DNA of 31,649 bases from the IMG/VR virus record IMGVR_UViG_3300045009_000155, positions 1-31,649 of that record. The stretch is one strand, 5' to 3'. Of the stretch, positions 3,913-11,524 are shown piece after piece. The DNA comes from a virus. Below the pieces are notes generated by a model. It saw nothing but the letters and a program-made list of their open reading frames with translations, was not told where the DNA came from and made no database searches. The position numbers were made by a program, and so were the translations under genes. How positions within the stretch are numbered: position 1 is the stretch's first letter; every line of letters starts with the position of its first letter.

Positions 3913-5010
3913 TTAAATAGGTAACCCATTCTTTTTGATTACTAATGTTGGGTCTAACTTTCTCATTCTATCTACTATGACTTGGCAGTATTTCGGGTCT
4001 AATTCCATTAAATATGTCTTAATCCCTTTTTGTTGTCCTGTTACCATTGTAACACCTGAACCGCCAAAAAAATCAGCAATACTATTAATATTGTCTTTTG
4101 TTTTTTCAATACACCAATTTACTAATAAAACAGGTTTTTGTGTTGGATGTACTCTATTTGCTTTTTCTGATGCTTGAGTAAATTGCCTTATTACACCTCT
4201 TATGTTTGTCCAAGCTAATTCACAATCCGTTTGGTCGCTTCCTCCGTTATTTTTATCCCATACGAGCCAACATTCACTATCTGGTAAAGCATTTGAGTAA
4301 TAGTTTGCACCCCACCAAATATGTGATGATTTTGGATAAAGTGAATAAATTAAATTAAAACTATTTTTTGCAACATCTGTATTATCATCACCTAAAATAT
4401 CATTCCCATATTTTTCCTTTAATACTCCGCTTTTACTTACGGCATTCATTCCATAAGGAGGGTCAGTAAATACCATATCAGCTTTCTCTCCATTCATTAG
4501 TTTAGCCACTTGGTCACTATCTGTACTATCTCCACAAAGTAAACGATGTTCTCCGATTTCAAATAAATCTCCTAAAACTATATCTGTTTGTATTGTTTCA
4601 GGAACTTCATAATCATCTTCTTCAGCTTTTAATACTTCCGTTTCAAAATTCGATATATCTAATCCCCACTCTTCTAATTTCTCCGCTTCCCATTCATTCG
4701 CTAAGTCGTTCCAATCCCATTCTCCAAAACCTACATTATCTTTAATGATAAATTCCTTTTGTTGCTCTTCGGTTAAGTCACTTGCTTTGATAACAGGAAC
4801 TTCCTTTAATCCTGCTTCCTTACAAGCCTTTAACCGCATATTCCCACCAAGAACTATCATATCATCATTTATAACGATAGGTCTCAACTTAAGCATTTCA
4901 GGGAACTCTTGAATTGACTTTACAAGTTTTTTGAACTTATCATCCTTAATAATTCTTGGATTTTTAGGATTCACTTTTACTTTCGTAATAGGTAGAATTT
5001 CTATTTTCAT
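3913..5010 (-). CDS. ParB-like domain fused to DNA methyltransferase
   Basis: From the ATG at 5010 the protein has 365 residues. A longer reading from TTG at 5034 is rejected because the ATG at 5010 sits in an ATGA overlap with the upstream small gene. Residues 1-105 form a ParB/Srx-type domain ([16 protein letters not shown] at 55-62). The methyltransferase part has the catalytic motif DPPYG at 183-187, HPTQKPV at 288-294 and the SAM-binding FFGGSG at 314-319. The order DPPY before FxGxG is that of beta-class N6-adenine or N4-cytosine enzymes. Such ParB-methylase fusions are common phage orphan methylases. It probably modifies phage DNA to block restriction or to mark DNA for packaging. The target site cannot be read from the sequence. 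Confidence 0.9.
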
Positions 5011-5177
5011 ATAGCTTCTTTTACTTCTTGCCAATAGTCTCTGGCATCAAAAACGTGATAGTTGTTACATACTTGACATAGTTCTACGAGTTCATCGTAA
5101 ACTAAATCGGCTATTTTGATAGCTTTTTCTTTTCCGTACTCTTCGACTAATTTGTCTGCTTGTTCTTTTACTTTCAT
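5007..5177 (-). CDS. Small conserved-looking protein, 56 aa
   Basis: ATG at 5177-5175 gives [20 protein letters not shown]... ending ...[10 protein letters not shown], 56 residues. The start overlaps the glycosyltransferase stop by ATGA (5174-5177) and the stop overlaps the methyltransferase start by ATGA (5007-5010). The perfect coupling on both sides is the main evidence that it is real. It is acidic and helical, with a CQVC pair in the middle. Function unknown; the DKLVE-x-YG opening resembles small phage proteins often found near terminases. Confidence 0.8.
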
Positions 5178-9690: not shown

Positions 9691-9831
9691 ATGAAAGCAA
9701 AAACACCTTCGAACATCCAGAAAAAAGGGAATTCGTATAGAGTACGAGTTCAAACCAACGGAATCCGAGTAAGCAAAAATTTTACTTCTCTCCGTAAGGC
9801 TTTGCAATTCAGAAAGCAAATGCAAGGCTAA
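9691..9831 (+). CDS. 46-aa integrase-arm/AP2-like DNA-binding domain
   Basis: ATG at 9691 gives 46 residues: MKAKTPSNIQKKGNSYRVRV..., then NGIRVSKNFTSLRKALQFR. Three short beta-strands followed by a basic helix, with the R-V-x-x-NGxRxSKxFxSLxxA layout, is the arm-binding fold at the N-terminus of many tyrosine integrases and of AP2-like domains. Here it stands alone, with no catalytic domain after it. It is very basic. It may be a stand-alone DNA or RNA binder, or the remnant of an integrase. It ends 6 nt before the tRNA-like element, a classic integrase neighbour, but no other att evidence is seen. Confidence 0.6.
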   Translation: MKAKTPSNIQKKGNSYRVRVQTNGIRVSKNFTSLRKALQFRKQMQG

Positions 9832-9837
9832 TGGGTA

Positions 9838-9927
9838 AGCCGGTTAGCGTAAGTGGGAATGAATACCACATAGGTAACGCCTTTACATTGTAGTAAAAAA
9901 ATGGGAGTTCAAATCTCCCACCGGCTT
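9838..9927 (+). tRNA. tRNA-like element, possible tRNA-Thr(UGU) with hairpin in D-loop
   Basis: A 90-nt cloverleaf can be drawn. Acceptor AGCCGGT (9838-9844) pairs fully with ACCGGCT (9920-9926); T8 A9 follow. The D-stem is GCGT (9847-9850) with ACGC (9877-9880). The anticodon stem is TTTAC (9882-9886) with GTAAA (9893-9897), the variable loop is five bases, and the T-arm is GGGAG/CTCCC with loop TTCAAAT. The anticodon would be TGT (9889-9891), preceded by T33 and followed by A37. Two oddities: the anticodon loop has six bases, and the D-loop is 26 nt because of an extra hairpin (GTGG 9853-9856 with CCAC 9866-9869). Without it the length is about 73 nt. No CCA is encoded, and the discriminator is T. 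It could be a decayed tRNA, a tRNA mimic or an att site. Confidence 0.5.
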
Positions 9928-9946
9928 CAAATCAAAATTAAAAATT

Positions 9947-10156
9947 ATGAAACTAAAAGTTTACAGAGAGGTCACGCTTGACCGAAAATATTATTCAGTT
10001 TATGAAGTTCAGGATGATGGCGAATCTATCGTAAAAGTATTTTTATTTAATTTAGCAAATGAAGATGATGTTTATCATCAAGTCATTAAGTTTGCAAAAC
10101 ACATCGAACAAGAAGGACTACCCAACAAAAAACAATTAATTTACGAATCAATCTAA
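9947..10156 (+). CDS. Hypothetical small protein, 69 aa
   Basis: Starts 20 nt after the tRNA-like element with an A-rich leader. The product (MKLKVYREVTLDRKYYSVYE...) is beta-rich in the first half and helical at the end (QVIKFAKHIEQEG). No family recognised. It is followed by the SSB-like gene after five bases, so the two are probably translated together. Confidence 0.65.
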   Translation: MKLKVYREVTLDRKYYSVYEVQDDGESIVKVFLFNLANEDDVYHQVIKFAKHIEQEGLPNKKQLIYESI

Positions 10157-10419: not shown

Positions 10420-10790
10420 TGGCTAAACTACCACTTCCGAAACTTCTTAAAAAGGCTCAAGACAAATTCAACGCACATATCAGAGAACGAGACAAACACC
10501 TTGGTTGTATAAGTTGCGGAGCAGAAGTACAACAGGCGGGTCATTACTTTTCACAAGGTCAGCACTCTGCTTTACGATTTGCACTACCAAATGAATTAGC
10601 GTATTTTAATACCAACGGACAATGTATTCGATGCAATATGTATCTTTCTGGTAATTTAATAAAATACCGACAAGGTCTTGTTAAAAGATATGGCGAAGAA
10701 TTAGTTTTAAGATTGGAAGCGGAAGCCGAACAACGAATAAAAAAATGGTCAAGGAGTGAATTAGAACTAATAATTAAAACCTACAAATGA
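10419..10790 (+). CDS. ninG: NinG/Rap-like HNH recombination protein
   Basis: The product is 123 residues. It has KKAQDKFNAHIRERD (11-25), then CISC (C30, C33), QAGHYFSQGQHSALRF (H42 at the HNH position), and QCIRCN (C69, C72) followed by YLSGNLIKYR. This is the layout of lambda NinG (Rap), a structure-specific nuclease of phage recombination: two Cys pairs holding zinc around an HNH core. Lambda NinG is longer (about 200 residues); this is the compact form common in other phages. The stop overlaps the PP-loop gene by ATGA. Confidence 0.85.
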   Translation: MAKLPLPKLLKKAQDKFNAHIRERDKHLGCISCGAEVQQAGHYFSQGQHSALRFALPNELAYFNTNGQCIRCNMYLSGNLIKYRQGLVKRYGEELVLRLEAEAEQRIKKWSRSELELIIKTYK

Positions 10791-11524
10791 CTCGAGTCTT
10801 TAACTTTAGTGGAGGCAAGTCCTCGGCTTATATGGTAATAAAATATTATCAGCCGGGCGATTTAGTTATCTTTTGTGATACTGGTAGGGAACATCCTAAG
10901 ACATATAAATTTATCAATGACTTTGAGGCTCACGAAAATATACCAATAATTAGATTAAAATATGCCAATACTGATGACCCATTTCGTACAATGTTAGAAA
11001 AAAGAAAATACAAGCAAATTCCTAATCGTATGAAAAGGATATGTACGGTTGAATTAAAAATTAAAACTTGCCGAAGATATTTAAGAAGTTTGGGGTTAAT
11101 TGATTATGAAAATTTTGTTGGTTTTAGATATGATGAGCCATTACGAGTAAAACGAAGGAAACAGGCTTGGAAGAGAGTAATAGATAGATTTCCATTATAT
11201 GATGATAAAATAAACAAGCAAACAATAAATGCTTTTTGGAATACAAAAGCATATAATTTAGAAATACCATCTATACTTGGAAATTGCACTTTATGTTTCA
11301 TGAAAGGCAAAAATGCAATAATAAATATTTTATCTACTTATCCTGAATTGGCAGAACAATGGATTAAAGATGAAGATGAGGCACAAAAAAATGGAAAATA
11401 TGGAGGACATACTTATTTTCCTGACATAACATATAAACAATTATTATCTATTGCAGAAAATAATTTGTTCAAACACAATTTAGATAACATAAAACCAGCA
11501 TTTGATTGTGCCTGCACAACTTAA
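10787..11524 (+). CDS. PAPS-reductase/DndC-like PP-loop protein
   Basis: The product is 245 residues. The PP-loop FSGGKSSA is at residues 7-14, which binds and cleaves ATP to AMP and pyrophosphate. Cysteines at 86 (RICTVELKI), 167 and 170 (GNCTLCFMKGK), and 241 and 243 (FDCACTT) match the spacing idea of the Fe-S-bearing PAPS-reductase/DndC group rather than simple transferases. Phages often carry such proteins. Roles proposed for the family include sulfate activation metabolism and DNA phosphorothioate modification. No other dnd or cysteine-pathway gene is seen here. A tRNA-thiolation role is a further possibility. The start overlaps the NinG-like gene by ATGA. Confidence 0.85.
   Translation: MTRVFNFSGGKSSAYMVIKYYQPGDLVIFCDTGREHPKTYKFINDFEAHENIPIIRLKYANTDDPFRTMLEKRKYKQIPNRMKRICTVELKIKTCRRYLRSLGLIDYENFVGFRYDEPLRVKRRKQAWKRVIDRFPLYDDKINKQTINAFWNTKAYNLEIPSILGNCTLCFMKGKNAIINILSTYPELAEQWIKDEDEAQKNGKYGGHTYFPDITYKQLLSIAENNLFKHNLDNIKPAFDCACTT

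Follow-up and report, generated by a model that had tools for sequence, protein, structure and literature searches.

A tRNA-like RNA that has lost decoding occupies a fixed place between two operon genes of a group of uncultured phages, directly behind a 46-aa open reading frame (ORF), p46. We describe it from the window, by which we mean the whole 31,649-base IMG/VR virus record that was analysed. This tRNA-like structure (TLS) is a selected tRNA-like RNA; it is not an ordinary decoding tRNA, nor is it in decay, and its stems covary among relatives. Our analysis gives about an even chance that it would act in cis as an intercistronic processing and 3′-end-protection element, a punctuation mark used by RNase P and RNase Z. 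As a more tentative reading, which we place a little short of even, tailed phages (probably of Bacteroidota) would recurrently carry anticodon-free, tRNA-derived intergenic RNAs as RNase P/Z punctuation or tRNA decoys, ranging from a near-complete tRNA through a D plus T elbow to an acceptor/T minihelix, at several unrelated junctions and in unrelated phages. The TLS seems to be previously undescribed: a search of open-access papers found no description of it, an absence that is weak evidence.

Structure of the tRNA-like element

The TLS was read from the sequence, the fold, covariation and a covariance model (R1). It and its surroundings comprise the following features of the window.

9691–9831, plus strand: p46, the 46-aa ORF that is always directly upstream of the TLS; predicted β-β-β-α, AP2/integrase-arm-like
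9798–9829, plus strand: stem-loop (from folding) in the final p46 codons, up to the stop codon and just upstream of the TLS
9832–9837, plus strand: 6-nt spacer TGGGTA from the p46 stop to the TLS; in most relatives the first TLS base is preceded by GGWA or GGTT
9838–9927, plus strand: TLS
9838–9844/9920–9926, plus strand: acceptor stem, 7 Watson-Crick base pairs
9845–9846, plus strand: T8 and A9, read directly
9847–9850/9877–9880, plus strand: D stem, read directly
9851–9876, plus strand: 26-nt D-loop, holding GTGG (9853–9856) and CCAC (9866–9869)
9853–9869, plus strand: 17-nt hairpin insert in the D-loop, GTGG-GAATGAATA-CCAC, from sequence comparison with relatives
9882–9897, plus strand: degenerate anticodon arm, with stem TTTAC/GTAAA (9882–9886/9893–9897) and 6-nt loop ATTGTA (9887–9892)
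9903–9919, plus strand: T arm, with 5-bp stem (9903–9907/9915–9919) and loop TTCAAAT
9903–9926, plus strand: T arm plus 3′ acceptor strand, giving an exact 7 + 5 = 12 bp acceptor/T stack with a TTCRA loop, as in 27 of 27 variants
9927, plus strand: N73, an unpaired T
9928–9946, plus strand: 3′ flank up to the next start codon, with an invariant C74, no encoded CCA and the A-rich 5′ leader of the 69-aa ORF
9947–10156, plus strand: downstream 69-aa ORF (p69), not constant; missing in L095 and L097–L110, where g10162 comes directly

Direct reading and folding bear out the tRNA fold described in an earlier note on this DNA, with its 26-nt D-loop, its GTGG/CCAC hairpin and its 6-nt anticodon loop; the variable loop is 5 nt. 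The minimum free energy is −29 kcal/mol (z = −3.4 against dinucleotide shuffles, 0 of 200 equally stable), and fold energy by itself is moderate evidence that the window TLS is real. R1 scores it 70.5 bits, the window being part of the R1 training set. Standard finders pass it over: default ARAGORN on the window and Rfam at the gathering threshold gave no match to the TLS owing to the D insert and the short anticodon loop. The ARAGORN search that the earlier note had proposed thus came up empty in default mode and, with introns allowed, returned a low-scoring pseudo-Cys (tRNA-Cys with an intron) at 9838–9928. The gathering threshold of the Rfam tRNA family RF00005 is 29 bits; a relative without an anticodon arm (L109) reaches 47.2 bits and 10 near-clade genomes reach 37.6–53 bits, and the window falls under the threshold because of the D insert. 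ARAGORN found no tmRNA in the window, and Rfam at a permissive threshold gave chance matches only (sraA, 24 bits, well under its cut-off). A terminator-like site on the minus strand (9922–9900, formed by the T-arm hairpin together with the A-rich variable loop) was set aside, as it needs the window's own A-run, which relatives do not have.

Covariation and conservation among relatives

Close relatives were gathered by a T-arm/acceptor sequence search and a D-arm pattern, and more distant ones by neighbour-protein searches and a search with the p46 alignment. In 40 of 40 near-clade contigs, defined by a p46 of about 70% identity or more, the TLS begins 6–8 nt past the p46 stop. These contigs hold 27 distinct TLS sequences and are not all independent phages, several having identical TLSs; the TLS search demanded a TTCRANY loop, which all 40 loci possess. 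The MAFFT alignment was misaligned between clades across the anticodon-arm region, and covariation was computed on the acceptor, D and T stems of 21 distinct composite sequences, in which variable loops were taken out for a gap-free alignment and D-stem partners were placed by motif. In these composites 99.1% of stem cells are paired versus 86.2% after shuffling, and pairing drops to 32–49% in slid controls. Both sides have changed in 11 of the 16 stem pairs (53 such cells), and 0 of 500 shuffles do as well. This is the decisive evidence that the TLS is not a chance fold, and the stem covariation that the earlier note had proposed to look for in relatives is present.

Among the forms of the acceptor stem are AGCCGGU, AGUCGGU, AGCUGGU, ACUCGGU, AGUCAGG and AGCCGGA, and in every case the 3′ strand matches. 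Pairs 2–5 and 7 all vary, pair 3-70 is C-G or U-A, and N73 is A, C or U across near-clade variants. The variation in N73 and in the acceptor implies that no consistent aminoacyl-tRNA synthetase identity has been kept. All variants have C74, and none encodes CCA. The D arm persists in 26 of 27 variants, and A14, R15, G18G19, A21 and the TTCRA T-loop in most; one variant (L144) has a D-loop without GG. L105/L156 are reduced to a bare acceptor/T helix with neither D nor anticodon arm, and even there (L156) the 12-bp stack is exact.

When R1 was run on whole genomes, the 11 near-clade genomes tested gave a single TLS each, and 5 of 6 distant-clade genomes gave no match. In the sixth (G011) the model matched a complete tRNA-Gly(UCC) elsewhere in the genome, with CCA not encoded in the sequence shown, so phages of this group are able to keep a normal tRNA when it is used for decoding. 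No second tRNA above the Rfam cut-off was found in the TLS genomes tested, where the TLS is the only tRNA-like gene. Comparison of the window DNA with named phage genomes gave no match, and a genome scan with NinG returned distant relatives only, mostly in Bacteroidota and Pseudomonas, which leaves the host a guess.

The anticodon arm and the D-loop insert

A 7-nt anticodon loop is absent from 26 of the 27 distinct variants, the window having 6 nt and its relatives 3–5 nt or no arm. The arm commonly survives as a capped hairpin: UUUAC-UUU-GUAAA, a CUUUGC/GCAGAG stem with a CUUG or UUUG cap, UUUC-UUU-GAAA, CUCU-GCAA-AGAG or GGGAAA-GUAA-UUUCUC. It is missing in L109/L167/L168 and in L095/L144. 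ARAGORN reports nothing in 19 of the 27 variants and calls tRNA-Thr in L093/L094; L094, with a 4-bp anticodon stem and a 7-nt CUUGUAG loop, is the sole variant that it reads as a complete tRNA, Thr(UGU). The CUUGUAG loop of L094 and the AUUGUA loop of the window hint at descent from a tRNA-Thr(UGU). As judged from these sequences, decoding is excluded as a conserved role of the TLS, given the 26 variants without a 7-nt loop and the several without an arm. The UGU anticodon that the earlier note had read in the window is best taken as an apparent relic of tRNA-Thr(UGU), as L094 suggests, and not as conserved decoding.

The D-loop insert forms a 4-bp hairpin with a 9-nt loop, and A14, A15, G18G19 and A21 are retained around it. 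The GTGGGAATRAATACCAC hairpin was found in the window, L052, L054, L055/L056 and L058/L065 only; L053 and all other relatives are without it, and most have a plain 8-nt D-loop, AATTGGTA. By flanking DNA the carriers form one group with the insert-free L053 nested inside, for which one gain and one loss, or recombination, would be the simplest account. This distribution makes the hairpin a late gain within a single subclade and shows that the D-loop tolerates additions. The 17-base insert that headed the earlier note is thus real and subclade-specific, and we dropped it as a defining feature of the TLS. An archaeal-type intron was judged unlikely for so simple a hairpin.

The p46 gene and its surroundings

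The AlphaFold model of p46 is confident and has a β-β-β-α fold (pLDDT 81). Its top PDB fold match is the AP2 domain of TEM1, a match that is not significant (E = 0.49, probability 0.87). Comparison of p46 with Pfam and PDB families gave none above cut-off, and a search over 84,980 genomes did not find it. Codon-position mismatches of 0.041/0.009/0.09 identify p46 as a real coding gene, although its third positions are unusually conserved (0.09 versus 0.24 and 0.21 in neighbour genes). Compared with synonymous recodings, the last 75 nt of the coding sequence (CDS) give z = −4.3 in the window (0/400), between −3.0 and −7.1 in most of the near clade and −2.6 in L170. When the native codons are permuted instead, the end of p46 gives z = −2.7 in the window and about −2.2 to −2.7 in the window-type group; in the L158-type group the values are −1.9 to +0.4, and with such weak values the L158-type fold signal is partly codon content. 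The unusual CDS structure and the conserved synonymous sites mean that an RNA- or DNA-level constraint overlaps the p46 ORF (9691–9829).

The order g8799–(g9449)–p46–TLS–(p69)–g10162–NinG is largely conserved. Both p69 and g9449 are missing in the L097–L110 group, which makes p46, and not a downstream gene, the constant partner of the TLS. Elsewhere in the window, a phage PAPS-reductase-family gene (10787–11524) adjoins NinG; 50 further contigs have homologues of 57–72% identity, in differing gene orders. On the minus strand, one ORF (3913–5034) combines two domains, the first ParB-N-like and the other an N6/N4 DNA methylase.

More distant p46 loci fill the slot behind the gene in another way. 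Where p46 is about 45–54% identical, 18 of 21 loci have a G/C hairpin, often GNRA-capped, and then a T-rich stretch; the terminator of L177 was confirmed by a terminator scan, and the other distant loci were judged by sequence and folds. In L097/L098-type phages the TLS is still trailed by a T-rich tract, TTCTTTCTTTAAC or ACTTTTTTTAAC. Together these two observations suggest replacement of a 3′-end hairpin by the TLS. Terminator and TLS are not the only occupants of the slot, since L172 (from about 709), L173 (about 3209) and L185 (about 566) carry a different structured RNA after p46, GGGACTCGGTTAAAATGC...TGTTGTATGAGAAGGCACTCTTAAAACAGCGAGTCCC, with covariation apparent by eye. Rfam at the gathering threshold gave no match on L115 and L123, the contigs of L173 and L185.

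Possible roles of the element

RNase P, RNase Z and the CCA-adding enzyme read the acceptor/T domain of tRNA regardless of isotype. The retained part of the TLS is what these enzymes recognise, and from this we infer a processing role in cis; the fold, its covariation, its set position and the loss of decoding are observed. In the model that we propose, a tRNA gene, possibly for tRNA-Thr(UGU), would have become a non-decoding RNA between two phage operon genes. Selection would keep the isotype-independent part, namely the 7-bp acceptor on the 5-bp T stem, the TTCRA loop and usually an elbow-capable D arm, while the anticodon arm could dwindle to a capped hairpin or disappear; one subclade has tolerated a D-loop hairpin. 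Host RNase P on the 5′ side, and RNase Z or exonucleases on the 3′ side, would excise the TLS or pause there. This may leave the p46 message with a fixed 3′ terminus that is protected, and start the downstream message at a new 5′ end, with the TLS standing in for the G/C hairpin and T-rich tract of most distant relatives.

Several observations favour this cis punctuation: the stem covariation, the presence in 40 of 40 contigs, the 12-bp stack kept in L156, the want of a constant synthetase identity, the hairpin and T-rich stretch in 18 of 21 distant slots, the like elements at other junctions (between the terminase genes TerS/TerL in L013 and after a basic-protein gene in L025) and the absence of recombinases from 17 phage records. 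An acceptor plus T arm of about 12 bp with a T-loop lies directly at the gene junction in 27 of 27 variants. A missing RCCA weakens RNase P recognition in some bacteria. The reading is accordingly weakened by a 3′ end that offers C74 only and no RCCA, but the tRNA-Gly of G011 is likewise without an encoded CCA. It is also weakened by the arguable decoding loop of L094, by the different structured RNA that L172, L173 and L185 have in the slot, and by the D arm, which a processing signal need not keep, yet 26 of 27 variants do. RNase P cuts acceptor/T-stem/T-loop hairpins (PMC11143913), and tRNA-like structures act as 3′-processing signals elsewhere, as does the plant mitochondrial t-element (PMC4919922).

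The main rival to cis punctuation is a tRNA decoy or mimic in trans, which we regard as possible though unlikely. Once excised, the stable RNA would bind either an enzyme with which the host handles tRNAs or a defence factor that senses or cuts them, and the anticodon would have been lost as useless or a liability. Such a role would account for the elbow-forming D arm (A14, R15, G18G19, A21) and the TTCRA T-loop, which are kept beyond the needs of processing; the 11 TLS genomes tested have no other tRNA-like gene, and degenerate, variable anticodon arms would evade anticodon nucleases. It fits poorly with L156, which has no D arm, with L144, whose D-loop has no GG, and with the fixed place right after p46, which an RNA acting in trans does not need. 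Distinctly improbable, in our estimate, is a cis role in stability, attenuation or termination exerted by the fold alone, without RNase P or RNase Z, or a TLS that serves as an operon-autoregulating target of the p46 protein or of host tRNA machinery. The terminator-like hairpin in the same slot of many distant relatives and the unusually structured end of the p46 CDS both point that way, but no T-tract stands behind the window-type TLS, the next start codon is about 20 nt on, and a simple hairpin would not require conservation of the T-loop, the D arm and the 12-bp stack.

The earlier note had offered a functional tRNA-Thr, a tRNA mimic and a tRNA losing function as its three readings, and what stands is a non-decoding mimic. 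A working tRNA-Thr(UGU), or a frameshift-decoding tRNA with unusual loops, is very unlikely: the window loop ATTGTA does hold U33-UGU-A37, and ARAGORN calls tRNA-Thr in L093/L094 with a 4-bp stem in L094, but same-locus homologues have 3–4-nt loops or no arm and neither N73 nor the acceptor is conserved. No more credible is a tRNA pseudogene in decay. Most relatives do have a broken anticodon loop and L094 may be near an intact ancestor; the double compensatory changes in 11 of the 16 remaining stem pairs (0 of 500 shuffles) largely refute decay, and retention in 40 of 40 contigs of compact genomes, with clean loss of arms while the remainder is maintained, also speaks against it. We attach next to no probability to the idea that a host tRNA gene left the TLS behind as an attP/attR remnant of integration, in spite of the likeness of p46 to an integrase arm-binding domain and the frequent origin of tRNA fragments via integration (PMC9897764). 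Neither tyrosine integrase (PF00589) nor serine recombinase (PF00239) was found in any of 17 phage records of 31.6–36 kb, and both acceptor strands of the TLS covary, unlike an att core.

Comparison with known systems

In mascRNA and menRNA a tRNA-like fold at the 3′ side of MALAT1 and MENβ is cleaved by RNase P and RNase Z, which forms the 3′ end of the RNA (PMC4919922). The TLS resembles them in lying directly 3′ of a transcript; they belong to animal nuclear lncRNAs and are processed, whereas the TLS belongs to a phage operon, its processing is predicted and its anticodon arm can be absent. Plant mitochondrial t-elements are likewise tRNA-like processing signals in polygenic transcripts, but they are organellar, are cut by PRORP and have no homology to the TLS (PMC4919922). 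The tRNA-like domain of tmRNA shares the acceptor plus T arm and the lack of a decoding anticodon; the TLS differs in having neither an mRNA-like domain nor the alanine identity pair G3-U70 (it has C-G or U-A) and is of independent origin. Among phage RNAs, C4 regulates an antirepressor by an antisense mechanism. The C4 antisense precursor of phages P1 and P7 is an RNase P substrate (Hartmann et al. 1995, via PMC4919922) and is not described there as a tRNA descendant. The closest parallel to L156 is the AT1 type of RNase P model substrate, the acceptor stem, T stem and T loop of tRNA-Phe (PMC11143913); AT1 is synthetic, and L156 is very nearly this minimal substrate in natural form.

The TLS set is a natural series in which the anticodon arm and then the D arm are lost while the acceptor/T domain is maintained at a fixed operon place. 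In this series, what a tRNA does in translation can be told apart from what it does as a substrate of tRNA-handling enzymes, and the phages offer cases in which tRNA punctuation or decoys can be tested.

Other elements of this kind sit at other gene junctions. A 146-nt tRNA-like structure with enlarged D and central regions (L013:8226–8371; R1, 33.6 bits) has an acceptor that starts at the stop codon of a terminase-small-subunit-like ORF, with the terminase large subunit ORF 12 nt on, the gene names being our reading of the translations; by pattern it occurs in 1 contig and is not widely conserved. Another, with a 15-nt anticodon loop (L025:7205–7289), directly follows a small basic-protein gene, and in the near relative L039 the site at the same junction is empty. 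A wider pattern search, for a D arm with a T loop following too early, gave good short-anticodon tRNA-like genes, with loops of 0–6 nt, in the unrelated phage contigs L207, L208, L212, L220/L234, L231, L240 and L241. Several weaker pattern matches, such as L205, L214, L217, L230 and L239, had no tRNA-type pairing and were dropped. Phage tRNA genes of undetermined isotype, here the short-loop genes of L207, L212, L220/L234 and L241 from larger phages, resemble the TLS; they are usually left as annotation oddities, whereas the synteny and covariation of the TLS show selection without decoding. Phage tRNA genes that are called undetermined or are missed may thus be functional RNAs discarded by standard finders, ARAGORN having been blank for 19 of 27 TLS variants. 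The short-anticodon contigs reach about 97 kb, and some of these genes lie near ordinary tRNA genes.
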